From Modestobacter sp. VKM Ac-2984 (GTDB lineage Bacteria; Actinomycetota; Actinomycetes; Mycobacteriales; Geodermatophilaceae): a stretch of DNA of 64,000 bases. This document shows positions 331 to 24,149 of this stretch, one piece after another. Positions within the stretch are counted from its first letter, which is position 1. Every line of letters begins with the position of its first letter. The notes beneath the pieces are model-generated. The model was not told the DNA's origin, ran no database searches, and was given only the letters and a program-made list of their open reading frames with translations. A program made the translations under genes and the position numbers. The DNA is taken from positions 414,349 to 478,348 of the forward strand of contig NZ_JAPVBJ010000002.1 in NCBI RefSeq assembly GCF_026967985.1, given 5' to 3'.

Positions 331-1035
331 GTGGGCGACGGCGTGCGGCTGACCGGGGCGACCTGGCCCGACATGGCGGGTCGTCCGCTGCTCGTCGTCC
401 CGCTCGGGTCGGTCGAGCAGCACGGCCGGCACCTGCCGCTGACCACCGACACCGTGGTCGCGCAGGCGGTGGCGGAGGCCGCCGTCGCGGAGCTGGACGG
501 CGCGGTGCTCGCCCCGGCGCTCGCGTACGGCGCCAGCGGTGAACACGAGGGGTTCCCCGGCACGATCTCGCTCGGCACCGCGGCGCTGACCACCGTGCTG
601 GTCGAGTACGGCCGCTCGGCCGGACGCTGGGCGGGCCGGCTGCTCGTGGTCAATGGGCACGGCGGCAACCTCGACGCCCTGCGGGCAGCGGTGCCGCAGC
701 TGCGGGCCGAGGGCCGGGACGTCGTCTGGTTCCCCTGTGGCGTGGCCGGGGGCGATGCGCACGCCGGGCGCACCGAGACGTCACTGATGTTGCACGTGGA
801 ACCTGCTGGGGTCCGCCCGGAGTTCGCCGCCGCGGGGGAGACCGCGCCGATCGCGGAGCTGCTGCCCCGGCTGCGGGCCGAGGGTGTGCGCGCGGTGAGC
901 CCGGACGGCGTGCTCGGCGATCCCGCCGGTGCGTCGGCGGCCGAGGGGGCGCAGCTGGTGCGCTCGCTCGCCGGGCGGCTGGTGGCCGCGGTCGGGGCCT
1001 GGGACGCCGACGCCGCCGGGCGGCTCCTGGGCTGA
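331..1035 (+). CDS. mftE: Creatininase-family amidohydrolase, probable mycofactocin peptidase MftE
   Basis: This 234-residue protein has the full creatininase metal site: GSVEQHGRHLPLTTD (E29, H31, H34, D40), VNGHGGN at 107-113 and DAHAGRTETSLM near 148. MftE is the creatininase homologue that cuts the VY dipeptide from the modified MftA peptide to release the mycofactocin core. The length fits MftE. The start is GTG at 331; no better one is seen. Unusually it stands alone: the gene to the left is divergent, the gene to the right is convergent, and none of mftA, mftB, mftC or mftD is in the window, although mftF lies 11 kb downstream. A general creatininase or creatinine-type amidohydrolase is the alternative. 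Confidence 0.75.
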   Translation: MGDGVRLTGATWPDMAGRPLLVVPLGSVEQHGRHLPLTTDTVVAQAVAEAAVAELDGAVLAPALAYGASGEHEGFPGTISLGTAALTTVLVEYGRSAGRWAGRLLVVNGHGGNLDALRAAVPQLRAEGRDVVWFPCGVAGGDAHAGRTETSLMLHVEPAGVRPEFAAAGETAPIAELLPRLRAEGVRAVSPDGVLGDPAGASAAEGAQLVRSLAGRLVAAVGAWDADAAGRLLG

Positions 1036-2132: not shown

Positions 2133-2265
2133 GCACACGGAGGTCACGGTCCGGTCACCGTGGCGGAGCAGGACGGCCGCGGTCGGGTCCCATGCCCGGG
2201 GGCTGCCGCCACGCCGCACCCGCACGTCGGTGGTCCCCGGCCCGGCGACCGGCAAGACTGCCGGG

Positions 2266-3684
2266 GTGCTGATGACCCTGTCCACCACCCACCGGCCGGC
2301 GACGGACCTGGGCTTCCTGCTGCACAAGAACCCCGCACGGGCGCAGCAGGTCGAGGTCTCGACCGGGACGGCGCACGTCTTCTACCCGGAGGCGACCGAC
2401 GAGCGGTGCACCGTCGCGCTGCTGCTGGAGGTCGACCCGATCGCGTTGGTGCGCGGGAACCGGGGGAACGAGGGCTTCGCCCTGGGTCAGCACGTCAACG
2501 ACCGGCCGTACGCCGCGTCCAGCCTGCTGGCCGTCGCGCTGGGCAAGGCCTTCGCCAGCGCCCGCCGCGGGGTGAGCAAGGAGCGGCCCGACCTGGTCGA
2601 CCAGGCGCTGCCGCTGGAGGTGCACCTGCCGGCGCTGTCCTGCCGGGGCGGTGCCGAGCTGGCCGAGCGGTTCTTCGCGCCGCTGGGCTGGCAGGTCGAG
2701 GCCCGGGCCGTCCCGCTCGACGAGCAGTTCCCCGAGTGGGGCGACTCCCGCCACGTCGACCTGCGGCTGCGCGGCACCCAGCGGCTCGCCGACGCGATCA
2801 ACCAGCTGTACGTCGCGCTGCCCGTGCTCGACGACGCGAAGCACTACTGGGTGAGCACCGACGAGATCGACAAGCTGCTGCGCGCCGGCAGCGGGTGGCT
2901 GGCCGGCCACCCGGACCGCGAGCTGATCACCCAGCGCTACCTGGCCCACCAGCGCGCACTGTCCGGCCAGGCGATGGCCCGGCTCGCCGAGGTCGACGAC
3001 GCCGACGTCGACACCTTCGATGACGCGGTCGCCGCGACGCCCGAGGTCCCCGAGCGTCCGGCGCCCCTGGCCCAGCTGCGGCAGGGCGCCGTCCTCGCCG
3101 TGCTCCGGGCGGCCGGCGCCCACCGGGTGCTCGACCTCGGCTGCGGCTCCGGGGCGCTGCTCCCCGCCCTGCTGGCCGAGCCGTCCCTCACCGAGGTGGT
3201 GGGGGTCGACGTCAGCTCCCGCGCGCTCGAGGTGGCGGCCCGCCGGCTGCGCCTGGACCGGATGCCCGAACGTCAGCGCGCCCGGATCAGCCTGCTGCAG
3301 AGCGCGCTCACCTACACCGACGCCCGGCTGGCCGGGTACGACGCGGCGGTGCTGATGGAGGTCGTCGAGCACCTGGACCCCGACCGGCTGCCGGCGCTGG
3401 AGCACGCCGTCTTCGCCGCCGCCGCGCCGTCGACCGTCGTGGTCACCACGCCCAACGCCGAGCACAACGTGCGGTACCCGGCCCTGGCCGGCGGCGGCCT
3501 GCGGCACCGGGACCACCGGTTCGAGTGGACCCGCGCCGAGTTCGCCGAGTGGGCCGACGGCGTGGCCGCCCGTCGGGGGTACGCGGTCCGGTACCTCGGT
3601 GTCGGCGGCGACGACCCGGAGGTCGGCCCGCCCACCCAGGTGGCGGTCTTCACCCGCGCGGCGGGGCAGGAGGTGGCGGCATGA
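2266..3684 (+). CDS. hen1: 3'-terminal RNA ribose 2'-O-methyltransferase Hen1
   Basis: Bacterial Hen1 methylates the 2'-OH of a damaged RNA 3' end before Pnkp ligation, so the repaired RNA resists the same cut. From GTG 2266 the protein is 472 residues. The N-terminal part starts TTHRPATDLGFLLHKNP, the hallmark of the bacterial Hen1 N-terminal domain. The C-terminal methyltransferase has VLDLGCGSG (about 288-296), the metal-binding EVVEHLD (365-371) and HRDHRFEW (414-421). I prefer GTG 2266 because it gives the family-like start MLMTLSTTHRP; ATG 2272 is also possible. Its stop overlaps the pnkp start by 4 bases, so the two are translationally coupled, as in other bacterial Hen1/Pnkp operons. 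Confidence 0.95.
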   Translation: MLMTLSTTHRPATDLGFLLHKNPARAQQVEVSTGTAHVFYPEATDERCTVALLLEVDPIALVRGNRGNEGFALGQHVNDRPYAASSLLAVALGKAFASARRGVSKERPDLVDQALPLEVHLPALSCRGGAELAERFFAPLGWQVEARAVPLDEQFPEWGDSRHVDLRLRGTQRLADAINQLYVALPVLDDAKHYWVSTDEIDKLLRAGSGWLAGHPDRELITQRYLAHQRALSGQAMARLAEVDDADVDTFDDAVAATPEVPERPAPLAQLRQGAVLAVLRAAGAHRVLDLGCGSGALLPALLAEPSLTEVVGVDVSSRALEVAARRLRLDRMPERQRARISLLQSALTYTDARLAGYDAAVLMEVVEHLDPDRLPALEHAVFAAAAPSTVVVTTPNAEHNVRYPALAGGGLRHRDHRFEWTRAEFAEWADGVAARRGYAVRYLGVGGDDPEVGPPTQVAVFTRAAGQEVAA

Positions 3685-6233
3685 GCGACGTCCGCGAGCT
3701 CGCCGTCCCCGAGCTCTCCCTGGTCGTGCTGATCGGCGCCTCCGGCTCGGGCAAGTCCACCTTCGCCAGGAAGCACTTCCGGCACACGCAGGTGCTCTCC
3801 AGCGACGTCTGCCGGGGCCTGGTCGCCGACGACGAGAACGACCAGTCGGCGACGCCGGCCGCGTTCGCCGTGCTGCACGCGATCGCGGCGGCGCGGCTGC
3901 GCGCCGGCCGGCTCACCGTCGTGGACGCGACCAACGTCAAGCGCGAGGACCGGGCGTCGCTGGTGCAGCTGGCGCGCGACCACGACGTGCTGCCGCTGGC
4001 GATCGTGCTGGACGTCGCGGAGGGCGTCTGTCTCGCGCGCAACGCCGCCCGCCCCGACCGGGACCTCGCCCCCACCGTGGTCAGCCGGCAGCGCGCCGAG
4101 CTGCGGCGTGGGCTGCGCGGGCTGAGCCGGGAGGGGTTCCGCAAGGTGCACCTGCTGAGCAGCCCGGAGGAGGTCGACGCCGCCGTCCTCACCTACGAGA
4201 AGGCCTACAGCGACCTGCGCGCCGAGACCGGCCCGTTCGACGTCGTCGGTGACGTGCACGGCTGCCGCGCGGAGCTGGAGGAGCTGCTCGGCCGGCTGGG
4301 GTACGAGCTCGTCCGCGACCCGCAGGGCCGGCCGGTGGACGCCGTCCCGCCCGCCGGACGGCGCGCGGTCTTCCTCGGCGACCTCGTCGACCGGGGCCCG
4401 GACTCCCCCGGCGTGCTCCGACTGGTGATGGGCATGGTGAGCGCAGGGCACGCGCTCTGCGTCCCGGGCAACCACGAGAACAAGCTGGTCAAGGCGCTCC
4501 GCGGGCGCGACGTGCAGATCACCCACGGGCTGGAGACCACCCTCGCCCAGCTGGAGGCGGAGACCCCGGAGTTCCGCCGCGAGGTCGAGGACTTCTGCTA
4601 CGGGCTGGTCAGCCACTACGTGCTGGACGGCGGCGCGCTGGTCGTGGCGCACGCCGGGCTGACCGAGGAGCTGCACGGGCGGGCCAGCGGACGGGTGCGC
4701 AGCTTCGCCCTGTACGGGGACACGACCGGTGAGACCGACGAGTTCGGCCTGCCGGTCCGCTACCCGTGGGCCCAGGACTACCGCGGCCGGGCGATGGTGC
4801 TCTACGGCCACACCCCGGTGCCCGAGCCCGAGTGGGTCAACAACACGATGTGCCTGGACACCGGCTGCGTGTTCGGCGGCCGGCTGACCGCACTGCGCTA
4901 CCCGGAGCGAGAGCTCGTCGACGTCCCGGCGCACCGCACCTGGTACGAGCCGGCCCGCCCGTTCCTCTCCGAGGACGACGCGACGCCGGAGCGGCCCGAC
5001 GAGGTGCTCGACGTCGCCGACGTGCTGGGCAAGCGGATCGTGGAGACCCGGTTGTCCGGCCGGGTCACCGTGCGGGCGGAGAACGCCGCCGCGGCGATCG
5101 AGGTGATGAGCCGGTTCGCCCTCGCTCCCCAGCAGCTGGCCTACCTGCCGCCGACGATGAGCCCGGTGGCGACCGCGGCGCACCCGAACCTGCTGGAGCA
5201 CCCGGCGGAGGCGTTCGCCTACTACCGCGGCGAGGGGGTCGACCAGGTCGTCTGCCAGGAGAAGCACATGGGTTCGCGGGCCGTCGCGCTGGTGCGACGG
5301 CAGGACGCGGCAGGCGACCCCGACCGGCCGGTGGGGGAGCGCGGAGCGCTGTACACCCGCACCGGCCGCGCGTTCCTCGGCGAGGAGCTGACCAGGGAGT
5401 TCCTGGCCCGGGTCGCCCGGGCGGTCGAGGGTGCCGGGCTGTTCACGGAGCTGGGCAGCGACTGGGTGCTGCTGGACGGTGAGCTGCTGCCCTGGTCGGT
5501 CAAGGCCGGTGACCTGATCCGCGGCCAGTACGCCGCCGTGGGCGCCGCGGCCCGGGCCGCGCTGCCGGTCGCCGAGGCGGTGCTGGTGCAGGCCGCCGGC
5601 CGGGGGCTGGACGTCGGCGAGCTGCTGACCCGCCAGCGGGCCCGCCGGGTCGACGTCGAGGGGTTCACCACCGCCTACCGGCGCTTCTGCTGGCCCACCG
5701 ACGGGCTGAGCGGCACCGCCTTCGCGCCGTTCCAGCTGCTCGCCGCGGCCGGGGCGACCTTCAGCGATCGGCCGCACGGGGAGCACCTGGCCCTCGCCGA
5801 CCGGCTGGCCGAGGCCGACCCGGAGCTGCTGCGCCGGACGCAGCACCGTGCGGTCGACGTCACCGACCCGGTCAGCGAGCAGGCCGCCACCGACTGGTGG
5901 ACGGAGCTGACCGCCGGCGGTGGGGAAGGGATGGTGGTCAAGCCGGCCGCCAACCTCACCCGCGGGCGCCGGGGCCTGGTGCAGCCCGGGCTGAAGGTGC
6001 GCGGCCGCGAGTACCTGCGGCTGGTCTACGGCCCCGAGTACACCGAGCCGGCGAACCTGTCCCGGCTCCGGGAGCGCAACCTAGGGCGCAAGCGGGGCCT
6101 GGCCCTGCGGGAGTACGCCCTCGGGCTGGAGGGCCTGGAGCGGTTGGCCCGGGGCGAGCCGATGTGGCGGGTGCACGAGTGCGTCTTCGCCGTCCTGGCA
6201 CTGGAGTCGGAGCCGGTCGACCCGCGGCTCTGA
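3681..6233 (+). CDS. pnkp: Polynucleotide kinase-phosphatase-ligase Pnkp
   Basis: This 850-residue enzyme heals and seals broken RNA (2',3'-cyclic phosphate removal, 5' phosphorylation, adenylation and ligation) together with Hen1. Three modules are visible in order: an N-terminal kinase with P-loop GASGSGKST at 19-27; a metallophosphatase with GDVHG (190-194), GDLVDRG (233-239) and GNHE (263-266); and a C-terminal adenylyltransferase with the nucleophile lysine in QEKHMGSR (K528). The length matches Clostridium thermocellum Pnkp. The ATG at 3681 overlaps the hen1 TGA. All key motifs of the three activities are intact, so the system is probably functional. Immediately downstream is the low-GC DUF262-Schlafen gene. 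Confidence 0.96.
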   Translation: MSDVRELAVPELSLVVLIGASGSGKSTFARKHFRHTQVLSSDVCRGLVADDENDQSATPAAFAVLHAIAAARLRAGRLTVVDATNVKREDRASLVQLARDHDVLPLAIVLDVAEGVCLARNAARPDRDLAPTVVSRQRAELRRGLRGLSREGFRKVHLLSSPEEVDAAVLTYEKAYSDLRAETGPFDVVGDVHGCRAELEELLGRLGYELVRDPQGRPVDAVPPAGRRAVFLGDLVDRGPDSPGVLRLVMGMVSAGHALCVPGNHENKLVKALRGRDVQITHGLETTLAQLEAETPEFRREVEDFCYGLVSHYVLDGGALVVAHAGLTEELHGRASGRVRSFALYGDTTGETDEFGLPVRYPWAQDYRGRAMVLYGHTPVPEPEWVNNTMCLDTGCVFGGRLTALRYPERELVDVPAHRTWYEPARPFLSEDDATPERPDEVLDVADVLGKRIVETRLSGRVTVRAENAAAAIEVMSRFALAPQQLAYLPPTMSPVATAAHPNLLEHPAEAFAYYRGEGVDQVVCQEKHMGSRAVALVRRQDAAGDPDRPVGERGALYTRTGRAFLGEELTREFLARVARAVEGAGLFTELGSDWVLLDGELLPWSVKAGDLIRGQYAAVGAAARAALPVAEAVLVQAAGRGLDVGELLTRQRARRVDVEGFTTAYRRFCWPTDGLSGTAFAPFQLLAAAGATFSDRPHGEHLALADRLAEADPELLRRTQHRAVDVTDPVSEQAATDWWTELTAGGGEGMVVKPAANLTRGRRGLVQPGLKVRGREYLRLVYGPEYTEPANLSRLRERNLGRKRGLALREYALGLEGLERLARGEPMWRVHECVFAVLALESEPVDPRL

Positions 6234-6351
6234 CTTGCCCCTGTCAATCCTCGGGAATCAGTCGGTGCAGCGACAGCTCCGTCAAGCCCACGGAATGGAC
6301 GCTGCCGCGTGCCGCAGGGGACTCGCCGTGCTTTCGTGAGACCATCCGGCC

Positions 6352-8115
6352 ATGGCGCAGCTCGACGCGAGTCCCCGCTCGATTCAGTCTGTCTATTCTT
6401 GGTATAGCCAGGGGCAGCTAAAGGTGAACCGTCGGTACCAGCGCAAGCTGGTTTGGACGACCAAGGAGAAGCAGAAGCTAATAGAGTCGGTGATGAAGAG
6501 GTACCCCGTACCTGCGATCCTGCTGGCCGCCCGGGACGACGGCTACGAGATCATCGATGGACTGCAGCGCCTGCATGCCATCGTCTCATTTGTCGAAACC
6601 GCTTTCGCGACGCTGGATGAAGAGTATTTCGACGTTTCGAGCTTTGTGACCGCTAAGAATCGGGCGGATTCAGGGGCGTTTGAGATAACGGGACAGGATT
6701 CGAAGATCGGATCCATGGAGGTGGCGGCATTCCTGGACTATTCGCTAGCTATTACGGTTATGCGGGATGCTTCGGAGTCTGAGATCGATGACGTCTTTGG
6801 GCGAATCAACACCTATGGGCACCGGCTGAGTGATCAAGAGCGGCGTCAAGCTGGTGTGCAGTCGGCCTTTGCGGACACGGTGCGCGAGCTCGCGACCCAG
6901 CTCAGGCAAGATGTTTCCCCCGAACCGATCGTCGACCTTTCGTTGATGCCGAGTATCAGCATCGATCTGCCGATGGCTCGACATGGCTACGGGACTGCAG
7001 CGTCGTCTACTTTCTGGGTTAACCAGGGTGTCCTTCGATCAACAGACTTGCGCGATTCGATGGACGAGCAGTGCCTTTCCGACATTGCGGCAATCATCGC
7101 TGGCGGAGCCATGATCGAGCGTTCTAAGGACGCACTTGACGCCGTCTATGCACCGGACACGCCAGAGAGTAACCGTGTACTGACGGGTCTGGTCACGCAT
7201 GGATCCGATAAGCTGAAGACGGAATTGAAGTACTGCATCGACGAGATTATGGCTATCTGCAGCGGCGGATCGGCTCCTTCTAAGCTGCGGGATGTCATCT
7301 ACCCTGAGGGGACCAATAACTCGTTCCCCTCGGTGTTCGCCATTTTGGTGGTGGCATTGCATGAAAAGCTCATCGCTGAGAGTAAAAAGATCGCAGATCA
7401 CGCAGCAGTTAAGGACAGTCTGACGGGCCTGAACGGCCGCCTATCGTCCGGGCGAACCGCCGATGAGCGCCGCCGAAACGTCAACGTTGTCAAGGGGCTA
7501 ATTGACGCTCATGTAGTCGAGGGGTCAACATCCGCTATTTATGGCGCCCACTCGTCTGTCGATATTGACAACATTATCCAACGGTCACGAATTGAGCTTC
7601 CACACTACGAGCTTAAGCAGGGATTGCTTAACCTGAATCCGCAACGCTCAGTCAACTCGGACCTTCCTGGCAAGGTCGTTAGAACGCTGTGCGCTATGGC
7701 AAACAACGGCGGCAATCGGTCTGGAACTGTGTTGATTGGCGTCACCGATGACGCGGCCGATGCGGATCGGGTGCGGGAGCTCGACGGCGTGCAACCTGTT
7801 CCGGTAGGCGCTCGATACGTTGTGGGAGTCAATAGGGAAGCCGCAGTTCTCGGTGAAACTGTCGAAGAGTACTTTTCGCGATGGAAAAACGCTATTCGTA
7901 GCGCGAATATCTCCCCGACATCACTACGGGATGCACTGCTCGCCAATATTGACTACCACGAGTATCGAGGACTTGGCGTGATCGTGATCTCCGTACCGAT
8001 CATGCGGGAAGTCTCTTACGTCGATGACGTTCCTTATCGCAGGGAGGGTGATGAGACTGTCGCGGTGACCGCGCTCTCGCAGGCGGTGGACTTGGGTAGA
8101 CGTTTCCAAGGATGA
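6352..8115 (+). CDS. DUF262 (ParB/Srx-like) - Schlafen/AlbA_2 domain fusion; putative defence or RNA-cutting protein
   Basis: This 587-residue protein joins two families. The N-terminus is DUF262: RRYQRKLVW (27-35), YEIIDGLQR with the DGxQR motif at 69-73, and [15 protein letters not shown] (149-163). This fold occurs in GmrSD, BrxU and SspE restriction proteins. A helical middle (about 240-400) is unassigned. The C-terminus is Schlafen/AlbA_2: ELPHYELK (415-422), [10 protein letters not shown] (445-454), TVLIGVTDD (459-467) and [10 protein letters not shown] (561-570). E415, E420 and D466 or D467 line up with the E-E-D nuclease residues known from mammalian SLFN11/13. No DUF1524 HNH domain is present. 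The DNA is much less GC-rich than its neighbours: lines 7321-7380 and 7381-7440 count 53% and 55% G+C, against 72% at 5881-5940, which points to acquisition. The domains are well supported; a defence role is inferred. Confidence 0.85.
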
Positions 8116-8242
8116 GTCCAGGGAGCTCCCCATGGGGCGACTGACGGCAGGAACACGGCGGGGTGCTGGTGGGTTACCCCCACAGTCGCGATCAGCCCGC
8201 CCAACGGGGGTGGACGTCCCGCGCAGACCGAGAGGACCAGCC

Positions 8243-8494
8243 ATGCAGAACGGCATCCACCCCGAGTACCGCACCGTCGTGTTCCAGGACACCGCGACCG
8301 GGGCCACCTTCCGCACCCGCAGCACCGTGCAGACCAGCCGGACCATCGAGCTGGACGGCGAGACGTTGCCGGTGGTCCCGGTCGAGATCAGCGCCTCCTC
8401 GCACCCGTTCTGGACCGGCAACCAGCGGGTGCTCGACACCGCCGGCCGGGTCGAGAAGTTCAACCAGCGGTTCGGCGCGCGCACCCGCAGCTGA
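8243..8494 (+). CDS. rpmE2: Ribosomal protein bL31, type B (zinc-free)
   Basis: The 83-residue protein starts [16 protein letters not shown] and contains [20 protein letters not shown], the diagnostic SxPF(Y/W)TGxQ block of 50S protein L31. No cysteine is present, so it is the C-minus (type B) paralogue that replaces zinc-binding L31 under zinc shortage in many actinobacteria. The ATG at 8243 is chosen because the family consistently starts at this point. I looked for a Zur box upstream and saw none that was convincing. A hairpin follows the stop. Confidence 0.97.
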
Positions 8495-9996: not shown

Positions 9997-11475
9997 ATGG
10001 CGCACCAGGCGACGGGGGAGACCGGTGCGCCGGCGGAGTCCCCGACCCCGCGGGTGGCGGTGGAGACCAACGGCATCAACGTGATCGCCGAGGCCGAGCG
10101 CAAGGGCACCCCGCGCCAGCTGTTCTGGCCGTGGTTCGGCGCGAACGTCAGCGTCCTGGGCCTGGCCTACGGCGCGTTCGTCCTCGGCTTCGGCATCTCG
10201 TTCTGGCAGGCCGTCGTCGCCGGCGTCGTCGGCATCGTGCTCAGCTTCGCCCTCTGCGGTTTGATCGCCATCGCCGGCAAGCGAGGCTCGGCGCCCACCC
10301 TGGTGCTCAGCCGCGCCGCGTTCGGGGTCACCGGGGGCCGGGTGCCCGCCGTCCTCTCCTGGATCCTCACCGTCGGCTGGGAGACGGTGCTCGCCTCGCT
10401 GGCCACCCTCGCCACCGCCACGGTGTTCACCCAGCTCGGCTGGGGTGGCGGGACGACGACCCAGGTCGTCGCCTTGCTGGTCGTGGCCGCCCTGGTGGTC
10501 GTCGGCGGGGTGCTGGGCTTCGACCTGATCATGCGGATGCAGACGGTGATCACCGTCGTCACCGGCGTGCTGACCGTCGGCTACCTGATCCTGGTCGCCG
10601 ACGAGATCGACTGGGCGGTGGTCAGCGACCTGCCCGCCGGCTCCACCCAGGCGTTCATCGGCGCGCTGGTGTTCGTCATGACCGGCTACGGGTTCGGCTG
10701 GGTCAACGCCGCGGCCGACTACTCCCGCTACCTGCCGCGCACCGCCTCGACCCGCGGGGTCGTGGGCTGGACGACGTTCGGCTCCGCGCTCGCCCCCGTC
10801 GTCCTGCTGGTCGTCGGGCTGCTGCTGGCCGGCTCGTCGACCGACCTGGCGGCGGCGATCAGCGCCGACCCGATCGGCGCGCTGGCCGCCCTGCTGCCCA
10901 CCTGGTTCCTGGTGCCCTTCGCCCTGGTCGCCGTCCTGGGGCTGGTCGGCGGCGCCCTGCTGGACATCTACTCCTCCGGCCTGTCCCTCCTCGCCGCCGG
11001 CGTGCGGGTCCCCCGCCCGGTCGCCGCCTCGATCGACGGCCTGCTGATGGTGCTCGGCGCCATCTGGGTGGTCTTCCTGGCCGAGGGTGACTTCTTCGTC
11101 CAGTTCCAGGGCTTCCTGATCACCCTCGGTGTCCCGGTCGCGGCCTGGTGCGGGATCGTGCTGGCCGACCTGCTGCTGCGCCGCCGCGACTACGCCGAGG
11201 CCGAGCTGTACGACCGGCGGGGGCGCTACGGCTCGGTGCCCCCCGTCCCGCTGACCCTCCTCGGGCTGGGCACGGTGCTCGGCTGGGGGCTGGTCACCAA
11301 CACCTACGCCAGCTGGCTGACCTGGCAGGGCTACCTGCTCGGCCCGGTGGGCCTGGGTGGCAAGGACGGCGACTGGGCGTTCGCCAACCTCGGTGTCCTG
11401 GTCGCGCTGGCGGTCGGGTTCGCCGGCACGCTGCTGCTGCGCCGCGGGGCGGTCCAGCAGCAGGAGGCGGGGTGA
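9997..11475 (+). CDS. NCS1-family nucleobase (cytosine/purine) permease
   Basis: The 492-residue protein has about twelve hydrophobic helices and matches the CodB/NCS1 pattern: an N-terminal NVIAEAERKGTPRQLFWPWFGANVSVLG block, GKRGSAPTLVLSRAAFGVTG in the first third, and GFGWVNAAADYSRYLPR in the middle. NCS1 carriers use H+ or Na+ to import cytosine, purines, hydantoins or similar rings. Its stop overlaps the start of the cysteine hydrolase by 4 bases, suggesting that the imported ring or its breakdown product is a substrate of that enzyme. The exact substrate is not readable. Confidence 0.9.
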   Translation: MAHQATGETGAPAESPTPRVAVETNGINVIAEAERKGTPRQLFWPWFGANVSVLGLAYGAFVLGFGISFWQAVVAGVVGIVLSFALCGLIAIAGKRGSAPTLVLSRAAFGVTGGRVPAVLSWILTVGWETVLASLATLATATVFTQLGWGGGTTTQVVALLVVAALVVVGGVLGFDLIMRMQTVITVVTGVLTVGYLILVADEIDWAVVSDLPAGSTQAFIGALVFVMTGYGFGWVNAAADYSRYLPRTASTRGVVGWTTFGSALAPVVLLVVGLLLAGSSTDLAAAISADPIGALAALLPTWFLVPFALVAVLGLVGGALLDIYSSGLSLLAAGVRVPRPVAASIDGLLMVLGAIWVVFLAEGDFFVQFQGFLITLGVPVAAWCGIVLADLLLRRRDYAEAELYDRRGRYGSVPPVPLTLLGLGTVLGWGLVTNTYASWLTWQGYLLGPVGLGGKDGDWAFANLGVLVALAVGFAGTLLLRRGAVQQQEAG

Positions 11476-12020
11476 GCGGCCCGGTGCCCGACCGCGTGCT
11501 GGTGGTGGTCGACGTCCAGCACGTCTTCGCCGACCGGGACTCGCCGTGGGGCGCGCCCCGGTTCGCCGAGGTGCACCCCGCGATCCGCCGGCTGACCAGG
11601 GCGTTCGCCGGGCGTGTGGTGCACACCCGGTTCGTCGCGCCGGCCGAGCCGACCGGGGCCTGGGTGCCCTACTACGCGCAGTTCCCCTTCGCCCTCACGT
11701 CCCCGGACGCGCCGCTGTACGCGCTGGTCGACGACCCGGGCGACGCCCCGGTGCTCGACGCGACCACCTTCGGCAAGTGGGGCCCCGAGCTCGGCGCCCT
11801 GGTCGGGGCCGGGCCGCTGGTGCTGGCCGGGGTCTCCACCGACTGCTGCGTGCTCTCCACCGCCCTGCCCGCCGCGGACGCCGGGGTGCCGGTGCAGGTG
11901 GTCACCGACGCCTGCGCGGGCGCCAGCGACGCCGACCACGACCGGGCGCTGGCCGCGATGGCGCTCTACGCGCCGCTGATCACCCTCACCACCACCGACG
12001 CGGTGCTCGCCGGCCGATGA
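11472..12020 (+). CDS. Isochorismatase-like cysteine hydrolase
   Basis: The 182-residue protein has the cysteine hydrolase triad: D14 in VVVDVQ, K102 in FGKWG, and the nucleophile C126 in GVSTDCCV, preceded by the cis-peptide region. Relatives include nicotinamidase, N-carbamoylsarcosine amidase, ureidoacrylate hydrolase (RutB) and isochorismatase. Starts with GTG overlapping the permease stop (GTGA), and its own TGA overlaps the mftF ATG, so the three genes are translationally coupled. With an NCS1 permease in front, an amidase acting on a carbamoyl or ring-opened pyrimidine product is more likely than siderophore synthesis. This role is inferred from context. Confidence 0.88.
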   Translation: MSGPVPDRVLVVVDVQHVFADRDSPWGAPRFAEVHPAIRRLTRAFAGRVVHTRFVAPAEPTGAWVPYYAQFPFALTSPDAPLYALVDDPGDAPVLDATTFGKWGPELGALVGAGPLVLAGVSTDCCVLSTALPAADAGVPVQVVTDACAGASDADHDRALAAMALYAPLITLTTTDAVLAGR

Positions 12021-13450
12021 GCCTGCCCCCGCCGCCCCCGGACCGGCTGCCCGACGGCTTCACCGTCGTGCTCGGCCCCGGCGTCGAGCGCCGGGAGGGC
12101 GGGACGGCGCTGCTCGGCGGCTCCCCGGCCCGGCTGCTCCGGCTGGCCCCGGCCGCGCGGACGCTGCTGACCGGCGACCGGCTGGCGGTCACCGACGCCC
12201 GCAGCGCCGCACTGGCGGCCCGGCTGCTCGACGCGGGCGTCGCCGCGCCCGAGGTGCCGGCGGTGCCGCGGCCCGACGTCACGGTCGTCGTCCCGGTCAA
12301 GGACCGGACCGACGGGCTGGCGCGGCTGCTGGCCGCCCTGCGCGCCGACCCCGGCACGGCCGGGTGCGCCGTGGTGGTCGTGGACGACGGCTCGGCCGAC
12401 CCCGCCGCGGTGGCCGCGGTGGCCGCCGGGACGCGGCTGATCCGGCACGAGCGTGCCCGCGGCCCGGCCGCCGCCCGCAACGCCGGCCTGCGGGTGGCCG
12501 GCACCGAGGCGGTGGCGTTCGTCGACTCCGACTGCGTGCCCGAGGCCGGCTGGCTGGGCACGCTCGCCGGGCACCTGGCCGATCCACGGCTGGCCCTGGT
12601 CGCGCCGCGGATCACCGCGCTGGACCCGGCGCAGCCCGGCTGGGTGGCCCGGTACGAGGAGCTGGCCAGCGCCCTGGACATGGGCCCGGCCGCGGCGCCG
12701 GTCGCGCCCGGCACCGGCGTCTCCTACGTGCCCAGCGCGGCGCTGCTGGCCCGGCGGGCGGCGCTGGGGGCGGGCTTCGACGAGGCGATGCCGGTCGCCG
12801 AGGACGTCGACCTGGTGTGGCGGCTGACCGGCGCAGGCTGGCGGGTGCGCTACGAGCCGGCCGCCCGGGTCGCCCACGACCACCGGGTCGAGCTGCGCGA
12901 CTGGCTGCGGCGCCGGGCCTTCTACGGCACCGGCGCGGCGCTGCTCGCCCAGCGGCACGGCGCGGCGGTCGCCCCGCTGGTGATCTCGCCCTGGTCGCTG
13001 GCGGCCTGGGTGCTCCCGGTGCTCGGCGGCCGGCTGGGGCTGCTGGGCAGCGTCGGTGTGCTGGGCCGGGCCAGCGTGCTGCTCGCCCGGCGGGTGGCCG
13101 CCCCCGGCCAGCCGCCGCCGATCAGCTGGGCGGCCGGCCTGGTGCTGCGCGGGACGGCGTCGTCCGGACGGGCGCTGGGCCGCACCGTGACCCGGCACCA
13201 CTGGCCGTTGGCCGTGGCGGCGGCGGTCGTCTCCCGCCGGGCGCGGCGGGCGGCCGGAGCGATCGCGGTCGCCGACGCGGTGGCCGGTTGGTGGCCGCAC
13301 CGCCGGGAGATCGACCTGCTCGCCTTCGCGGCCGGCCGCCGGCTGGAGGACCTGGCCTACGGGGCCGGGCTCTGGTGGGGCGTGCTGCAGGCCCGCGACG
13401 TCCGCGCCCTGCTGCCCGCCCCGCCCGAGCCGGTCGCCCCGCGCCGGTGA
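12017..13450 (+). CDS. mftF: Mycofactocin glycosyltransferase MftF
   Basis: The 477-residue protein starts with RLPDGFTVVLGPGVERREGG and LLGGSPARLLRLAPAA, the N-terminal region peculiar to MftF, followed by a GT2 domain (VTVVVPVKDRTDGLARLL, VVVVDDGSAD, GPAAARNAGLRVA and the metal-binding FVDSDC). The C-terminal third has hydrophobic segments that probably hold it at the membrane. MftF adds a beta-1,4-glucose chain to premycofactocin in mycobacteria. Length matches family members. In mycobacteria mftF follows mftE directly; here it sits 11 kb away behind a permease and hydrolase, coupled to them by a 4-base overlap. Confidence 0.93.
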   Translation: MSLPPPPPDRLPDGFTVVLGPGVERREGGTALLGGSPARLLRLAPAARTLLTGDRLAVTDARSAALAARLLDAGVAAPEVPAVPRPDVTVVVPVKDRTDGLARLLAALRADPGTAGCAVVVVDDGSADPAAVAAVAAGTRLIRHERARGPAAARNAGLRVAGTEAVAFVDSDCVPEAGWLGTLAGHLADPRLALVAPRITALDPAQPGWVARYEELASALDMGPAAAPVAPGTGVSYVPSAALLARRAALGAGFDEAMPVAEDVDLVWRLTGAGWRVRYEPAARVAHDHRVELRDWLRRRAFYGTGAALLAQRHGAAVAPLVISPWSLAAWVLPVLGGRLGLLGSVGVLGRASVLLARRVAAPGQPPPISWAAGLVLRGTASSGRALGRTVTRHHWPLAVAAAVVSRRARRAAGAIAVADAVAGWWPHRREIDLLAFAAGRRLEDLAYGAGLWWGVLQARDVRALLPAPPEPVAPRR

Positions 13451-13490
13451 CGTCGGGGTGACGTGCGACTGAACACTGCGTCCGGCAGGA

Positions 13491-13502
13491 ATGCAGTTGC
13501 AT
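13491..13502. promoter_or_regulatory. Small dyad upstream of drug exporter
   Basis: ATGCA-GT-TGCAT is a perfect 5+5 inverted repeat, 80 bp before the start of the Bcr/CflA exporter in an otherwise plain intergenic region. It could be an operator for a MarR- or TetR-type regulator. No regulator gene is adjacent, so this is weak. Confidence 0.3.
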
Positions 13503-13581
13503 CGTGCAGCCTTGTCGCCGAGGTACTGCGAACGTGGCCAGCGTCGGTCCCGCGGGAGCACAGCACCGACCAGGGGGATCG

Positions 13582-14916
13582 ATGACCGCCACACAGCACT
13601 CCGCACGAACGGACCAGGCCGCGCCCGACCTGACCGCACCCGACCAGGCCGCCGGCGCCCCGGTCGACGTCTCCGGGCCGTCCGACCCGCAGGTGGAGAA
13701 GCCGAAGACCGCCCGGCTCGCGCTGACCCTGGGCGCGTTCGTCGCCCTCGGGCCGCTGACCATCGACATGTACCTGCCGGCCCTGCCGACGATCGCCACC
13801 GACCTGGAGACGACGTCCGCGGCGGTGCAGCTCACGCTCACCGGCACGCTGATCGGTCTCGCGCTCGGCCAGCTCGTGCTCGGTCCGCTGTCCGACCGGT
13901 TCGGCCGCCGCCGTCCGCTGTTGGCCGGCACGGCGGTGCACGTGGTCGCGTCGTTGCTGGTGCTGCTCGCGCCGAACATCGCCGTCCTGGGTGCCCTGCG
14001 GGTGCTGCAGGGCATGGGCACCGCGGCCGGTGCGGTGATCGCGATCGCCGTCGTCCGCGACCTGTTCGTCGGCCGTGCGGCGGCGACGATGCTCTCCCGG
14101 CTGTTCCTGGTGCTCGGGGCCGCGCCGGTGCTGGCGCCCACGATCGGCGGGGAGGTGCTCCGCTTCACCTCCTGGCGCGGGGTCTTCCTGATCCTCGCGC
14201 TCTACGGCGTGGCGCTGCTGGCCATCGGTTTCTTCCTGATCCGGGAGACCCTGCCGCCCGAGCGGCGCAGCACCGAGGGGGTCGGCGGCACGCTGCGCGG
14301 CTACCGGTCGCTGTTCGGTGACCGCGCCTACGTCGGCCTGGTGCTGGTCGCCGGCCTGACCATGGCGGGCCTGTTCGCCTACGTCTCCGGCTCCTCCTTC
14401 GTCTACCAGCGCCAGTTCGGCCTGGACGAGCAGGAGTTCGGGCTGCTCTTCGGCGCCGGCGCGTTCTGGCTGATCGCCGCCACCCAGCTCAACCCGCTGC
14501 TGCTGCGCTGGTTCTCCCCCGCGCAGGTGCTGGTCGCCGGCACCATCGGGGGCGCGCTCTCCGGACTCACCCTCACGGTGCTCGCGGCCACCGAGACCGG
14601 CGGGTTGTTCGCGGTCGCGATCCCGCTGTGGGCGGTGCTGTTCGCCTGCGGGCTGGCGCTGCCCAACGCCCCGGCGCTCGCCCTGTCCCGGCACGGCGAG
14701 GCGGCGGGCACCGCAGCCGCGCTGCTCGGCGCCGTGCAGTTCGGCGTGGGCGCTGCGGTCTCGCCGCTGGTCGGCCTGCTGGGCAACGACGCGGTCGCGA
14801 TGGGCGCGGTGATCGTGGGGTCGCTGTCGCTGGCGATCGTCGTCCTGGTGGTCGTCGTCCGGCCGTGGCAGCTCGAGGAGCCCGACCCCGAGGTGGCTGC
14901 GGTCGCCGCGCACTGA
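13582..14916 (+). CDS. Bcr/CflA-family multidrug efflux MFS transporter
   Basis: The 444-residue protein has a roughly 45-residue polar N-terminal tail and then twelve hydrophobic helices. The motif GPLTIDMYLPALPTIA in helix 1 and LGQLVLGPLSDRFGRRRPLL between helices 2 and 3 (MFS motif A) are diagnostic of the Bcr/CflA drug/H+ antiporter branch. LQGMGTAAGAVIAIAVVRD is the usual helix 4 block. ATG 13582 is preceded by AGGGGGATCG as ribosome binding site. Probable substrates are bicyclomycin-like or amphenicol-like drugs, but this cannot be told from sequence. Confidence 0.92.
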   Translation: MTATQHSARTDQAAPDLTAPDQAAGAPVDVSGPSDPQVEKPKTARLALTLGAFVALGPLTIDMYLPALPTIATDLETTSAAVQLTLTGTLIGLALGQLVLGPLSDRFGRRRPLLAGTAVHVVASLLVLLAPNIAVLGALRVLQGMGTAAGAVIAIAVVRDLFVGRAAATMLSRLFLVLGAAPVLAPTIGGEVLRFTSWRGVFLILALYGVALLAIGFFLIRETLPPERRSTEGVGGTLRGYRSLFGDRAYVGLVLVAGLTMAGLFAYVSGSSFVYQRQFGLDEQEFGLLFGAGAFWLIAATQLNPLLLRWFSPAQVLVAGTIGGALSGLTLTVLAATETGGLFAVAIPLWAVLFACGLALPNAPALALSRHGEAAGTAAALLGAVQFGVGAAVSPLVGLLGNDAVAMGAVIVGSLSLAIVVLVVVVRPWQLEEPDPEVAAVAAH

Positions 14917-14929
14917 GTGGCGACCCCGG

Positions 14930-15721
14930 TCAGCCGATGACGACGGCGCCGGTCGTGCCCACCTGCACGAGCCGGGTCACCCCGGTGCTGGCGCTGGTCA
15001 CCTGCTCCTCGAACCAGAAGACGTAGGGCTCGCCGGGGGTGAGCCCGTCGACCGTGACGGTCATCGGCTGGCAGCCCTCGACCTGGGCGACGGCCCGCAC
15101 CACCGGCGGGGGCTGCTGCCCACCGATCAGGCGCTGGCTGACCGCCTGCACCCGGTAGCCGACCACCTCGGGCCGGTTGTCCGACATCCAGTCCAGCGTC
15201 GCCGACCCCGGCCCGGGGACGACGCCGGGCACGATCCGGCGGGGCGTGGTGCCGGCGCCACCGCAGCCGTCGGGCTCCAGCTCGTAGACCGGCGATCTGC
15301 CGATCGACGCGTTGGGCATGATCGAGATCCGCCCCGGCCGCGGCGGCTGGGGGACGACCAGCCCGCCGTCGGTCGCGACGTCGGCGCGGGAGGCGGCCCC
15401 CGCGCGGGTGGCGCGCTCGGCGCGTGCCGCGGCGACGTCGGCCAGGGTGTCCACACCCTGCGCCTCCGCGAGCACCGGCACCTCCGCCGACACGGGGGCC
15501 GGAGCAGGGGCCGGGACGGCGGCGGGCACCTGCACCACCGGTGCGTCCGTGGCGGTCAGGTCGACCAGCACGGGGGTGAGCTGCGGGGCGAGCACGACCG
15601 CGCCGACGGTCACCGCCAGCAGCGGGACCAGCCAGCGGGTGTGGTCCCGGCGCCGCCGGACGGGGGCGCGCCGCCGGGCCACGGGGCGGCTGCCTGCGGT
15701 GCGTCGTCTCTGTTCGGCCAT
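14930..15721 (-). CDS. Membrane-anchored secreted protein with fibronectin-like C-terminus
   Basis: The 263-residue product has a very basic start (MAEQRRRTAGSRPVARRRAP), one membrane segment (WLVPLLAVTVGAVVLAP), then a Pro/Ala/Val linker and an outer domain. The last 100 residues (GSATLDWMSDNRPEVVGYRV to VDGLTPGEPYVFWFEEQVT) resemble a fibronectin type III fold, where 'VxGLTPGxxYxFxV' is the usual core. Function is unknown; such proteins often bind surface polymers or other envelope proteins. GGAGGGAGC lies at a good distance upstream of the ATG. Its end lies 13 bp from the convergent end of the exporter gene. Confidence 0.7.
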   Translation of the reverse strand: MAEQRRRTAGSRPVARRRAPVRRRRDHTRWLVPLLAVTVGAVVLAPQLTPVLVDLTATDAPVVQVPAAVPAPAPAPVSAEVPVLAEAQGVDTLADVAAARAERATRAGAASRADVATDGGLVVPQPPRPGRISIMPNASIGRSPVYELEPDGCGGAGTTPRRIVPGVVPGPGSATLDWMSDNRPEVVGYRVQAVSQRLIGGQQPPPVVRAVAQVEGCQPMTVTVDGLTPGEPYVFWFEEQVTSASTGVTRLVQVGTTGAVVIG

Positions 15722-15841
15722 GACAGCTCCCTCCCGGTGCTCAAGGGAGCATCGGCACGGAGGGGCCCCGGCTCGCGCCGAACCACCCGAACGGGTCGCG
15801 GCGGCGGGAATGGCCACGCCGGGCGACGTCTTGGGCCAGCT

Positions 15842-17059
15842 GTGAGCGCACCCCCCGCCGTCTCGACGACGTCGGCTCCCACCGCACCCTCCACCCGCAC
15901 CGCGGTGCTGGCGATCGTCGCCCTCGCGCTCGGTGGGTTCGCCATCGGCACCACCGAGTTCGTGACCATGGGGCTGCTGCCCGACATCGCCCGCGGCGTG
16001 GGCGCGAGCATCCCCGAGGCCGGGCACGTCATCTCCGCCTACGCCCTCGGCGTCGTCGTCGGCGCCCCGGTGCTCGCCGCGCTGGGCGCGCGGCTGCCAC
16101 GCCGGCGCCTGGCGATGGGGCTGATGGTGGCGTTCGTCGTCGGCAACACCCTCAGCGCGCTGGCCCCCGGCTACGGCTCCCTGGTGCTCTCCCGCTTCGT
16201 CGCCGGCCTCCCGCACGGCGCCTACTTCGGCGTCGCCTCGCTGATCGCCGCGTCCCTGGTGCCGGCCCACCTGCGGGGCCGCGCGGTCAGCTCGGTGATG
16301 CTCGGGCTGGCGGCCGCCAACGTCGCCGGGGTGCCCGCCGCGACGTGGTTGGGCCAGCAGCTGGGCTGGCGCTCGGCCTACTGGGCGGTCGTGGTCATCG
16401 GCGCGCTGACCTTGCTGGCCGTGCTCACCGTCGTCCCCTCGGTGCCGGGGCGCTCGGAGGCGACGATCCGCGACGAGCTGGGGGCGCTGCGCCGTCCCCA
16501 GGTGATCCTGACCCTGCTGGTCGCCACCGTCGGGTTCGGCGGCATGTTCGCCATGTACAGCTACATCGCGCCGATCGTCACCGAGGTGGCCGGCCGGTCG
16601 GCCGGCTTCGTGCCGGTCGTGCTGCTGGCCTTCGGGGTGGGTGGCGTGCTCGGGACGGTGCTGGGCGGGCGGCTCGCCGACCGGGCGCTGTTCCGCTCGC
16701 TGGTCGGGGCGACCGTCGCCACCGGCGTGCTCCTCGGCGTGATGGCGGTGGCCGCCGGCAACGCCCTGGCGCTGATCGTCACGGTGTTCACCATCGCCGC
16801 GGCCGCCTCCACGATGGTCGTGCTCCTCCAGCTGCGGCTGATGGAGGTCGCCGGTGAGGCGCAGATGCTCGGCGCCGCGCTGAACCACTCGGCGCTCAAC
16901 GCCGCCAATGCCCTGGGCGCCTGGCTCGGGGGCCTGGTCATCGCCGCCGGCCTGGGCTACCGGGCGCCGAGCGTGGTCGGTGCCGGGCTCGCCGTCCTCG
17001 GGCTGGGCTTCCTGGCCGCGTCCGCGGTGCTGCGCCGCCGGGAGCTGCGCGCGCCCTGA
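15842..17059 (+). CDS. DHA1-type MFS efflux transporter (AraJ/PbuE-like)
   Basis: The 405-residue protein has twelve hydrophobic segments with the signature LGGFAIGTTEFVTMGLLPDIA in helix 1 and LGARLPRRRLAMGLM in loop 2-3. GTTEFVxxGLLPxIA is typical of the AraJ/PbuE/YdhP group, which exports sugars, nucleosides or drugs. FVAGLPHGAYFGVASLIAASLVP is the conserved helix 4-5 block. GTG 15842 is the most likely start because the tail before helix 1 is then of normal length. It is divergent from the secreted fibronectin-like protein. Substrate is not known. Confidence 0.9.
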   Translation: MSAPPAVSTTSAPTAPSTRTAVLAIVALALGGFAIGTTEFVTMGLLPDIARGVGASIPEAGHVISAYALGVVVGAPVLAALGARLPRRRLAMGLMVAFVVGNTLSALAPGYGSLVLSRFVAGLPHGAYFGVASLIAASLVPAHLRGRAVSSVMLGLAAANVAGVPAATWLGQQLGWRSAYWAVVVIGALTLLAVLTVVPSVPGRSEATIRDELGALRRPQVILTLLVATVGFGGMFAMYSYIAPIVTEVAGRSAGFVPVVLLAFGVGGVLGTVLGGRLADRALFRSLVGATVATGVLLGVMAVAAGNALALIVTVFTIAAAASTMVVLLQLRLMEVAGEAQMLGAALNHSALNAANALGAWLGGLVIAAGLGYRAPSVVGAGLAVLGLGFLAASAVLRRRELRAP

Positions 17060-17151
17060 TCCGGCCGAGCCGTGGCCGAGCTGGTGGCGCCATCCCGTGA
17101 CAGCGGTCACGATGGGGCCACCATGAGCCTCAGCCCCGGGGACCCCGCGCC

Positions 17152-18459
17152 GTGTCGGCCGTGAACCCGTGGCTGGCGCTCCCCGACGGGAGCCCGAGCC
17201 CGGTGGTCGCCCGGCGGCTGCGGGCGGCGCACGAGGCGCTGGTCACGCGGGTCGACGCGCCCGTCCCGGCCCAGGTGCGCACGGTGGTCTGGGACTCGTG
17301 GCGCCGCTCGCTGGACAGCGGAGTCGACCCCGACGGGGCGGCGCCGCCGGTCGACCTGCTGGACGGCGACCTGGCCTCCTACCGGGCGGGTCACCCGCTG
17401 GCGGCGGTCATGCCGGTGATCCGCCGGCTGCTGGTGGCCGACGCCGAGGTCGACCGGATGATCGTGGCGGTCACCGACGCCGCCGGCCGGATGTTGTGGG
17501 TCGAGGGCGACGCGAGGCTGCGGGACCGGGCCGCCGGGATGCACTTCGTCGAGGGCGCCTCGTGGGGTGAGGACGTCGCCGGCACCAACGCCCCGGGCAC
17601 GGCGCTGGCGCTGGACCACGCCGTGCAGATCTACGGCGGCGAGCACTACCGGCGGCCGGTCCAGCCCTGGAGCTGCTCCGCGGCGCCGGTGCACGACCCG
17701 CGCACCGGCGCCCTGCTGGGCGCCATCGACGTCACCGGCGGCGACCACGTGGCGAGCCCGCACGTGCTCACCCTCGTCCGGGCCACCGCGGCGGCGGCGG
17801 AGGCCGAGCTGCGGTGGCTGTCCCGGCACCACCCCGCGCCGGCCGACCCCGCGTCCGGGGCCGCACGGCTGGAGGTGCTGGGCCGGGACCGGGCCCGGCT
17901 GGCCACGTCGACGACCGTGCAGGAGCTGTCGCTGCGGCACTCGGAGCTCCTGGTGCTGCTCGCCGAGGCGGCCGCCCGGGGCGAGGGTCGGACGGCCGAG
18001 CAACTGGCCGCGGAGTGCCACGGCGGTGCCGGCGCGACGGTCACCGTGCGCGCCGAGCTCTCCCGGCTCCGCCGGCTGGTGGGCGGTGACGTGGTCGGGT
18101 CCCGGCCGTACCGGCTGCTCGGACCGGTGCGCACCGACGTCGAGGAGGTGCGCACCCAGCTCGCCCGGGGCGCCCCGGCCGCCGCGCTGGACCGGTACCG
18201 CGGCCCGCTGCTCCCCGGTTCCCGGGCGCCAGGCGTGCGGGTCGCCCGCGCGCGGCTGGCCGACGACCTGCGGGGCGCCGTGCTGGCCTCCGGCCGACCG
18301 GACCTCCTCCTCCGGTACAGCGAGCGGCCCGAGGCGGCCGAGGACCTGGCGGTCTGGCAGGCCTGCCTGGCGCTCCTGCCGCCCGGGGGACGGCGCAGCG
18401 CTGCCGCCGCCCAGGTGCAGCGGCTGCGCGCGGGCGGGCGCGGCACCGCCCGCAGCTGA
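17152..18459 (+). CDS. GAF-domain transcriptional regulator (AcoR-like, lacking sigma54 AAA domain)
   Basis: The 435-residue protein has an N-terminal segment [20 protein letters not shown] as in AcoR-type regulators, followed by a GAF domain (about 80-200) with [21 protein letters not shown] and [15 protein letters not shown], the typical GAF text of acetoin and CO-dehydrogenase regulators. The C-terminal half lacks an AAA+ ATPase and carries a predicted winged-helix region ([21 protein letters not shown], then RPYRLLGPV). Start is GTG 17152, with GTG 17161 also possible. It lies directly upstream of coxSLM in the same direction with a 230-bp gap, so it probably senses a small molecule and controls that cluster. 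The DNA-binding assignment is less certain than the GAF. Confidence 0.8.
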
Positions 18460-18480
18460 GGCCCCGGCGACGGGCGGCGG

Positions 18481-18614
18481 TCCGGACTGCAACGAGGTGC
18501 AACGTTGCCGGACGGCGTCGGAGGGGCCCGGACATCCGCGTGTCCTGGGCTCGCAGCGCCGACGACCGGCTCCTGGCGGGCCCGGTGCGGAGAAGTGAGT
18601 GTGGCCTAACTCAC
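18481..18614 (+). promoter_or_regulatory. Regulatory region of the cox cluster with repeats
   Basis: The 230-bp gap before coxS holds clustered repeats. TGCAACG occurs at 18488-18494 and again at 18498-18504, one helical turn apart; the second copy is part of the palindrome GCAACGTTGC (18499-18508). Further on, GTGAGT (18595-18600) and ACTCAC (18609-18614) form a dyad with an 8-base spacer. These are candidate sites for the GAF regulator encoded just upstream. No clear -35/-10 pair stands out. Confidence 0.45.
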
Positions 18615-18689
18615 GTGTCGGTTGTCACACTGCCGACGGACCCGCGGGACGACCGCGGTGCACAGCCGAAGCAACGATGCGGAGGACAC

Positions 18690-19244
18690 GTGACCCAGAT
18701 CAACGTGCGGGTCGACGGGTCGTCCTACACGGACGACGTCGAGCCACGGACCCTGTTGGTCCACTACCTGAGGGAACAGCTCGGCAAGGTCGGCACCGTC
18801 GTCGGGTGCGACACCAGCAACTGCGGCGCCTGCACCGTGCACCTGGACGGCCAGGCCGTGAAGTCCTGCACCGTCTTCGCCGTGCAGGCCGACGGCTGCC
18901 AGGTCACCACGATCGAGGGCGTCGCCACCGGCGAGGGCGAGAGCGCGACCCTGCACCCGGTGCAGCGGGCCTTCCACGAGATGCACGGCCTGCAGTGCGG
19001 GTTCTGCACGCCCGGGATGATCATGGCCTCGATCGACCTGCTGAAGGAGAACCCGGACCCCAGCGACGAGGAGGTCCGGGAGGGCATCGAGGGCAACCTC
19101 TGCCGCTGCACCGGGTACCAGAACATCGTCCGGGCGGTCCGCCAGGCCGCGGCGGAGATGTCCGGCAAGGCCGCTGACGACCCGCAGGCCCAGCCGGCCG
19201 CCGTCGACACGGCCGCCGCCGACCACGTGGCGGCCCAGGCATGA
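18690..19244 (+). CDS. coxS: CO-dehydrogenase-type small subunit, two 2Fe-2S clusters
   Basis: The 184-residue protein carries both [2Fe-2S] sites of the xanthine oxidase family: C40, C45, C48 and C60 in the plant-ferredoxin-like N-domain ([13 protein letters not shown]) and C103, C106, C138 and C140 in the helical C-domain ([10 protein letters not shown] and [10 protein letters not shown]). It passes electrons from the molybdenum centre to FAD. An extra 30-residue Ala/Asp-rich tail follows the last helix. GTG 18690 is chosen because GGAGGACAC precedes it and the family starts here. Its stop overlaps the coxL ATG by 4 bases. Confidence 0.95.
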
Positions 19245-21721: not shown

Positions 21722-21749
21722 TACGCCGAAGCGACTCTGGAGCGAAGCC

Positions 21750-22607
21750 ATGATCCCCGCACCCTTCGCCTACACCCGCCCGAGCACGATCGAGGAGGCC
21801 CTGCAGGCGATCGCCGACGGCGGTGAGGACGTCAAGGTCCTCGCCGGTGGCCAGTCGCTGATCCCGGTCATGCGGCTGCGGCTCGCCGCGCCCGAGACGC
21901 TCGTCGACCTGACCCGGGTGGCCGAGCTCCGCGGCGTCCGCGAGGACGGCGACATGCTGGTCATCGGGGCGATGACCACGCACGCCGACGTCCTCACCGA
22001 CCCGCTGCTGGCGCAGTACGGCCAGCTGATCGTCCAGGCCACCGAGACCGTGGCCGACCGGCAGGTGCGCCGGCGCGGCACGTTCGGCGGCGCGCTGGCG
22101 CACGCCGACCCGGCCGGGGACCTCCCGGCGGTGGCGCTCGCCCTGGACGCGGAGTTCGTGCTCGCCGGGCCCGGTGGGCGGCGCACCGTGCCCGCCACGG
22201 ACTTCTTCGTCGACTACCTCACCACTGCCCTGGACGAGGGGGAGCTGCTGGTCGAGATCCGGGTGCCGAAGCTCGGCGAGGGCTGGGGCGTGCGGTACGA
22301 GAAGTTCAACCGGGTGGCCCAGGCCTGGTCGATCGTGGCGGTGGCCGCGGCCGTCCGGCGGGAGGACGGCCGGATCGCCGAGGCGCGGATCGGGCTGACC
22401 AACATGGGGCCGACCCCGCTGCGGGCGTCGGCCACCGAGGCGGCGCTGGTCGGGGTGGACGTCAGCATGGAGACGGTGACCGCGGCGGCGGCGCAGGCCG
22501 CAGAGGGCACCAGCCCCAGCAACGACCTCAACGCCCAGGCCGACTACCGGCAGCACCTGGCCCAGGTGCTGACCCGGCGGGCGGTGGCCGCCGCAGTGGG
22601 CCTCTGA
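21750..22607 (+). CDS. coxM: FAD-binding medium subunit of molybdenum hydroxylase
   Basis: The 285-residue protein begins MIPAPFAYTRPSTIEEALQ and has the two FAD pyrophosphate-binding loops of this family: AGGQSLIPVMRLRLA (about 32-46) and RRRGTFGGALAHADPAGDLP (about 108-127). The C-terminal domain (KFNRVAQAWSIVAVAAAV) is typical. It takes electrons from the iron-sulfur subunit and hands them to an acceptor. ATG 21750 lies 28 bp after the coxL stop. Third gene of a coxS-coxL-coxM operon; a hairpin separates it from coxG. Confidence 0.94.
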   Translation: MIPAPFAYTRPSTIEEALQAIADGGEDVKVLAGGQSLIPVMRLRLAAPETLVDLTRVAELRGVREDGDMLVIGAMTTHADVLTDPLLAQYGQLIVQATETVADRQVRRRGTFGGALAHADPAGDLPAVALALDAEFVLAGPGGRRTVPATDFFVDYLTTALDEGELLVEIRVPKLGEGWGVRYEKFNRVAQAWSIVAVAAAVRREDGRIAEARIGLTNMGPTPLRASATEAALVGVDVSMETVTAAAAQAAEGTSPSNDLNAQADYRQHLAQVLTRRAVAAAVGL

Positions 22608-22617
22608 CGGCAGGGCC

Positions 22618-24035: not shown

Positions 24036-24075
24036 CCTCACCCCGGGCGCGAGCCCGGACAGGGAGCACGCTGCG

Positions 24076-24118: not shown

Positions 24119-24149
24119 TCGGGGTCCCTCCTGGCTGGCCCGGCAGGCG

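Follow-up and report, generated by a model that had tools for sequence, protein, structure and literature searches.

Positions 6352-8115 (+) of a 64,000-nucleotide stretch of the Modestobacter sp. VKM Ac-2984 genome (contig NZ_JAPVBJ010000002.1; the whole stretch is referred to as the window) were confirmed to hold a true fusion gene joining a DUF262 domain to a Schlafen/AlbA_2 domain, as a first-pass annotation of this DNA had claimed. Judged from sequence similarity, the encoded fusion protein is one of a large single-gene family spread over several phyla. It is probably a horizontally transferred, self-contained anti-phage or anti-mobile-element protein, in which a DUF262 nucleoside triphosphatase (NTPase) sensor would gate a Schlafen RNase and bring about abortive infection.

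Domains, fold and conserved residues

The open reading frame (ORF) of the fusion gene is uninterrupted from an ATG at 6352 to a stop codon ending at 8115 and specifies 587 amino acids, with both domains passing their Pfam cut-offs. The GmrSD_N/DUF262 match (PF03235; E = 2.5e-20, 73.9 bits versus a cut-off of 33.2) spans residues 25-166 (6424-6849, +), and the SLFN_AlbA_2 match (PF04326; E = 2.8e-6, 28.3 bits versus 25.3) spans residues 433-569, within a Schlafen/AlbA_2 domain that Pfam and the predicted fold place at residues 399-587 (7546-8112, +). The region between the two domains (residues 167-398; 6850-7545, +) is chiefly helical in the predicted model. The motifs picked out in the first-pass annotation stand exactly at the residues it gave: DGLQR at 69-73 (6556-6570, +), ELPHYELK with E415, E420 and K422 at 415-422 (7594-7617, +), and TVLIGVTDD with D466 at 459-467 (7726-7752, +). 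Neither DUF1524/HNH nor HEPN was found in the fusion protein by Pfam at E ≤ 10, and a Pfam scan of 20 flanking ORFs at E ≤ 0.001 likewise gave no HEPN match.

Both domain folds are evident in a confident predicted model of the whole protein (predicted local distance difference test [pLDDT], 91.2; predicted template-modelling score [pTM], 0.85). Structural matches of the DUF262 part were to BrxU, SspE and ParB, the matches to BrxU and DndI covering residues 4-387 and 5-387, respectively. The Schlafen fold proposed for the C-terminal end was recovered in a model of residues 395-587 alone (pLDDT, 94.4; pTM, 0.90) and in structural matches, which included the SAMD9 tRNase domain and an SLFN5 structure whose title reads as involved in single-stranded RNA cleaving and DNA binding; the best match was DIP2311 (3lmm), whose title gives no function, and another (2kyy) was RecG-related. 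A search of the PDB by sequence gave nothing convincing for the fusion protein, and a profile alignment to SLFN11 was weak (E = 0.65), taking in E420 and D466 only. Pfam located a single AlbA_2 stretch, the structural matches were confined to one domain (residues 399-587), and a two-lobe SLFN core of the eukaryotic type was not found in the one chain.

A protein search with the fusion protein returned 1769 matches at E ≤ 1e-5. Among the matches listed (the query and 119 relatives at 54-59% identity), all 120 had D69-G70-L71-Q72-R73, E415, E420 and K422; D466 was shared by 116, the remaining four having N at that position. Conservation of the motifs across these 120 sequences indicates that the fusion and its motifs are not due to chance. 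In a wider alignment of 65 sequences including the query, reaching down to 27% identity, E415 and K422 were again invariant (65/65), E420 was found in 61 (Asp in 4) and D466 in 60 (Asn in 3, Glu in 2); D, G, Q and R of DGLQR were present in all 65 and L in 63 (M in 2). E415, E420 and D466 appear equivalent to the acidic residues of mammalian SLFN and SAMD9 tRNase domains. In SLFN13, Glu205 and Glu210 are described as required and Asp248 as also mattering (PMC5862951), and some SAMD9L proteins are reported to have Asn at one essential acidic place (PMC12331169), which may correspond to D466. Broken family copies with internal stops or a shifted frame were seen at four loci (L041, L066, L075 and L159, from Bombella, Hyphomonas and Competibacter records and one viral contig).

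Homologues in prophages and plasmids

Two homologues on viral contigs (L150 and L152) have P2-like phage flanks. A full-length homologue, WP_000818977.1 (WFL_RS04695 in strain W), 49.6% identical to the window protein and carrying DGLQR and ELANYELK, is encoded in Escherichia coli UMNK88 and E. coli W, between the replication endonuclease gene gpA and the portal gene gpQ of P2-like prophages; in both strains this interval also holds DinI-like and further hypothetical genes. Genes of this type at at least 80% of the length were found in 17 of 5426 E. coli genomes, two of which (UMNK88 and W) were viewed. The gpA-gpQ interval is described as an antiviral hotspot, in which P2 itself has old and tin (PMC9122126). 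The same interval holds an AIPR gene annotated "prevents superinfection" in Salmonella phage RE-2010 and a Ymh-domain gene in Escherichia phage 813R9. Independent support for a defence role comes from finding a family member at this P2 hotspot, a location that holds for the 49.6%-identical protein and not for the window gene itself. In two records labelled DH5alpha (NZ_CP026085.1 and NZ_CM135829.1), the P2-like prophage gene is identical to that of strain W, and the labels look doubtful.

On plasmid R100 a homologue of the gene is split, with the DUF262 part at 12231-13514 of locus L142 and the Schlafen part at 21993-22490 of locus L141. The DUF262 part stops next to one IS1; past the other IS1 comes the Schlafen part, so that the IS1-bounded resistance region separates the two domains. 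In 40 records spread over the 847 from E. coli, 20 matches stop and 12 start at the R100 split point, and 5 are full length. We do not claim the R100 DUF262 gene, which stands beside pemIK, as the RP4-transfer-inhibition gene tir; a CPBP gene upstream of pemI fits better. PMC10654068 places pemI/K downstream of tir, and PMC4398462 places tir and pemI/K downstream of repA4.

The hen1-pnkp locus and the rest of the window

Upstream of the fusion gene lie two resident genes, hen1 (2230-3684, +; Hen1_L, E = 1.8e-113) and pnkp (3525-6233, +; PNKP_ligase, E = 3.9e-169), the latter ending 118 bp before the fusion gene on the same strand. Downstream is a gene at 8243-8494 (+) whose translation, judged by its sequence, is probably a ribosomal protein L31 type B-like product. 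The fusion gene has a GC content of 55.8% (GC at third codon positions [GC3], 0.64), versus 74.3% for the window and 75.1% (GC3, 0.95) for pnkp, and the lowest-GC 1,764-base stretch of the window, starting at about 6300 on a 100-base grid, is the fusion gene.

Within the genus, 6 of 23 genomes encode PNKP ligase, counting the one that the window comes from. The five other congeners with PNKP ligase carry a binding-protein gene, hen1, pnkp and the L31-like gene in the same order, and in all five the fusion gene is missing from the 12-kb stretch at the same locus. In the nearest of them (L106; approximately 96% identity over hen1-pnkp), 125 bases stand against 1934 in the window, and the segment without a counterpart (6234-8167) consists chiefly of the fusion gene. 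Alignment of these 125 bases with the upstream spacer was no better than that of shuffled sequences (score of 20 versus a shuffle maximum of 29), and the repeats found in the flanks of the insert were short and chance-like. The neighbourhood of the fusion gene is an insertion site and not a shared module. By these sequence comparisons, the gene is a recent acquisition inserted into an older hen1-pnkp locus, and its position beside RNA-repair genes looks accidental.

Elsewhere in the window, ARAGORN called a 93-base tRNA-Arg (gcg) at 843-935 (+), which is long, has an unusual anticodon and is possibly a false call. Genes for a purine/cytosine permease, MFS (major facilitator superfamily) transporters, a molybdopterin-binding dehydrogenase subunit and a CoxG-like protein lie at 9997-25541, and this content suggests a purine or CO-type dehydrogenase region.

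Candidate mechanism, rival explanations and known systems

DUF262 in GmrSD, BrxU and SspE is described as binding or hydrolysing nucleoside triphosphates (NTPs) and as teamed with an HNH nuclease (PMC10952713). In the mechanism that we propose, residues 1 to approximately 390 would form a DUF262 NTPase and helical module resembling BrxU, SspE and DndI, which would sense a feature of the invader, possibly modified or replicating DNA (modified DNA is our guess, by analogy with these three enzymes), and signal by NTP binding or hydrolysis. The Schlafen/AlbA_2 domain would replace the HNH DNase of such enzymes and, once released or dimerised, cleave tRNA or other RNA via E415, E420 and D466; the resulting halt in translation would abort the infection. 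A dimer of single-lobe Schlafen domains might substitute for the two-lobed SLFN clamp. The trigger, NTP switch, RNase activity, substrate and phage phenotype are all inferred. In a more specific version, which we offer tentatively, the sensor would be of the type-IV-restriction type and detect modified phage DNA, whereupon the Schlafen domain would cut tRNA and no DNA would be cut. The protein would then amount to a one-component bacterial equivalent of Schlafen/SAMD9 immunity that plasmids, P2-like prophages and chromosomes exchange across phyla.

Several observations qualify this proposal. The E-E-D residues, which the first-pass annotation had likened to the nuclease residues of SLFN11 and SLFN13, are present and conserved but are no special mark: E-x4-(E/D)-x-K was also present in 12 of 15 control AlbA_2 loci from related genomes, and the downstream acidic/Asn place, under a stricter pattern, in 9 of the 15. 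The signature therefore marks the AlbA_2 family and is not proof of a tRNase, and we downgraded it as special evidence for one. Against a link to defence, no copy covering 80% of the protein was found in 50,697 annotated phage records. Among immediate neighbours of close family members, 5 of 30 had PADLOC matches (L019 +1, L021 -1, L027 +1, L031 -1 and L042 +1); in the control set 1 protein of 20 did, a difference that is not significant (Fisher P = 0.38). The link to defence islands, whose absence the first-pass annotation had named as refuting its reading, is therefore weak when judged by neighbours. The 30 neighbours were chosen from 33 of at least approximately 240 amino acids (leaving out L013 +1, L034 +1 and a duplicate from L020) and the 20 controls from 125 called proteins, with ORFs called by a simple script. 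In aggregated PADLOC scans, 63 models were matched by 124 neighbour ORFs (of 129 called; four were dropped as duplicates from L020 and one as a fragment at an edge) and 84 by 124 control ORFs (of 125), but such scans carry little information because a single protein can match dozens of models. A single-gene sensor-effector defence, as the first-pass annotation had suggested, is plausible from the P2-hotspot homologue, carriage on plasmids and viral contigs, and patchy distribution.

The AlbA_2 domain could instead do no more than bind nucleic acid; the protein would then be a sensor or regulator of the DUF262 type, or serve in plasmid or prophage maintenance, with no nuclease activity. This is unlikely: it fits the presence of the same motif in most of the checked AlbA_2 loci of other architectures, the functionless title of the top structural match (DIP2311) and the RecG-related 2kyy match, but binding poorly explains why the first Glu and the Lys never vary among sequences as distant as 27% identity and why the remaining acids hardly do, and both the structural similarity to the tRNase domain of SAMD9 and the homologue at the P2 hotspot speak against it. 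Less probable still is a type-IV-restriction-like enzyme whose Schlafen domain would cleave or nick not RNA but DNA, also in modified form. The long matches to BrxU and DndI, the DNA binding in the SLFN5 title and the partnership of DUF262 with a DNase in GmrSD, BrxU and SspE (PMC10952713) would favour DNA as the substrate; however, the fusion protein lacks a DUF1524/HNH match at the threshold given above, the relatives SLFN13 and SAMD9 are reported to cleave tRNA (and rRNA in the case of SLFN13) (PMC5862951, PMC12331169), and PD-T4-2 is described as containing DUF262 and HEPN, the latter mostly an RNase superfamily (PMC10952713, PMC3710099).

A ribotoxin functionally paired with the adjoining Hen1-Pnkp cassette, an RNA-repair pair also by its Pfam description, is very improbable. 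The first-pass annotation was right that both genes are genuine and lie immediately upstream, but the functional coupling did not stand, as the gene is an insert without such a link elsewhere. The final set comprised 194 loci, 148 of them similar to the fusion protein, with flanks that vary and in many cases are under 10 kb; within it, similarity to hen1 or pnkp was found at the window's own locus and at loci fetched for PNKP and at none besides, and PNKP ligase occurred in just 6 of 38 host genomes searched. Given also the absence of the fusion gene from all five congeners and its GC contrast with pnkp, coupling to hen1-pnkp was rejected as a family trait.

Bacterial Schlafens are said, in the title of a 2025 bioRxiv preprint by Taboada et al. 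(cited as reference 144 of PMC12839542), to be anti-phage effectors. DUF262 and AlbA_2 together were not found in any of the open-access main texts searched, and in these DUF262 and Schlafen occurred together in one 2013 survey only, at separate places. Bacterial Schlafen defence is a known kind, and the DUF262 fusion architecture is a variant of it whose novelty is uncertain; the 2025 preprint or published P2-hotspot tables may already list it. The top PADLOC models for the fusion protein, NsnA (1.9e-29) and PD-T4-2_A (2.8e-21), both match the N-terminal part only. The NsnA alignment covers model positions 47-213 of 385, the neighbours of the fusion gene are pnkp and the L31-like gene, and among the ten open-access papers listed for the name Nsn, none uses it.

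The type IV restriction enzymes BrxU and GmrSD combine DUF262 with DUF1524, whereas the fusion protein has a Schlafen domain in place of HNH/DUF1524. Its effector also differs from those of SspE and DndI, which sense phosphorothioation, and no Ssp or Dnd genes were recognised by the Pfam scan of the 20 flanking ORFs. PD-T4-2, matched in the N-terminal part, resembles it in joining DUF262 with an RNase-type domain, although that domain is HEPN there and Schlafen, in a single chain, here. With the tRNase domains of mammalian SLFN11/13/14 and SAMD9 the fusion protein shares its fold and acidic residues, but it is single-lobed, bacterial and joined to DUF262. If the proposed sensor-effector mechanism is true, a sensor that is paired with a DNase in the best-studied systems, GmrSD, BrxU and SspE, also drives an RNA-cutting Schlafen effector, which would strengthen the case for bacterial relatives of Schlafen and SAMD9 immunity.
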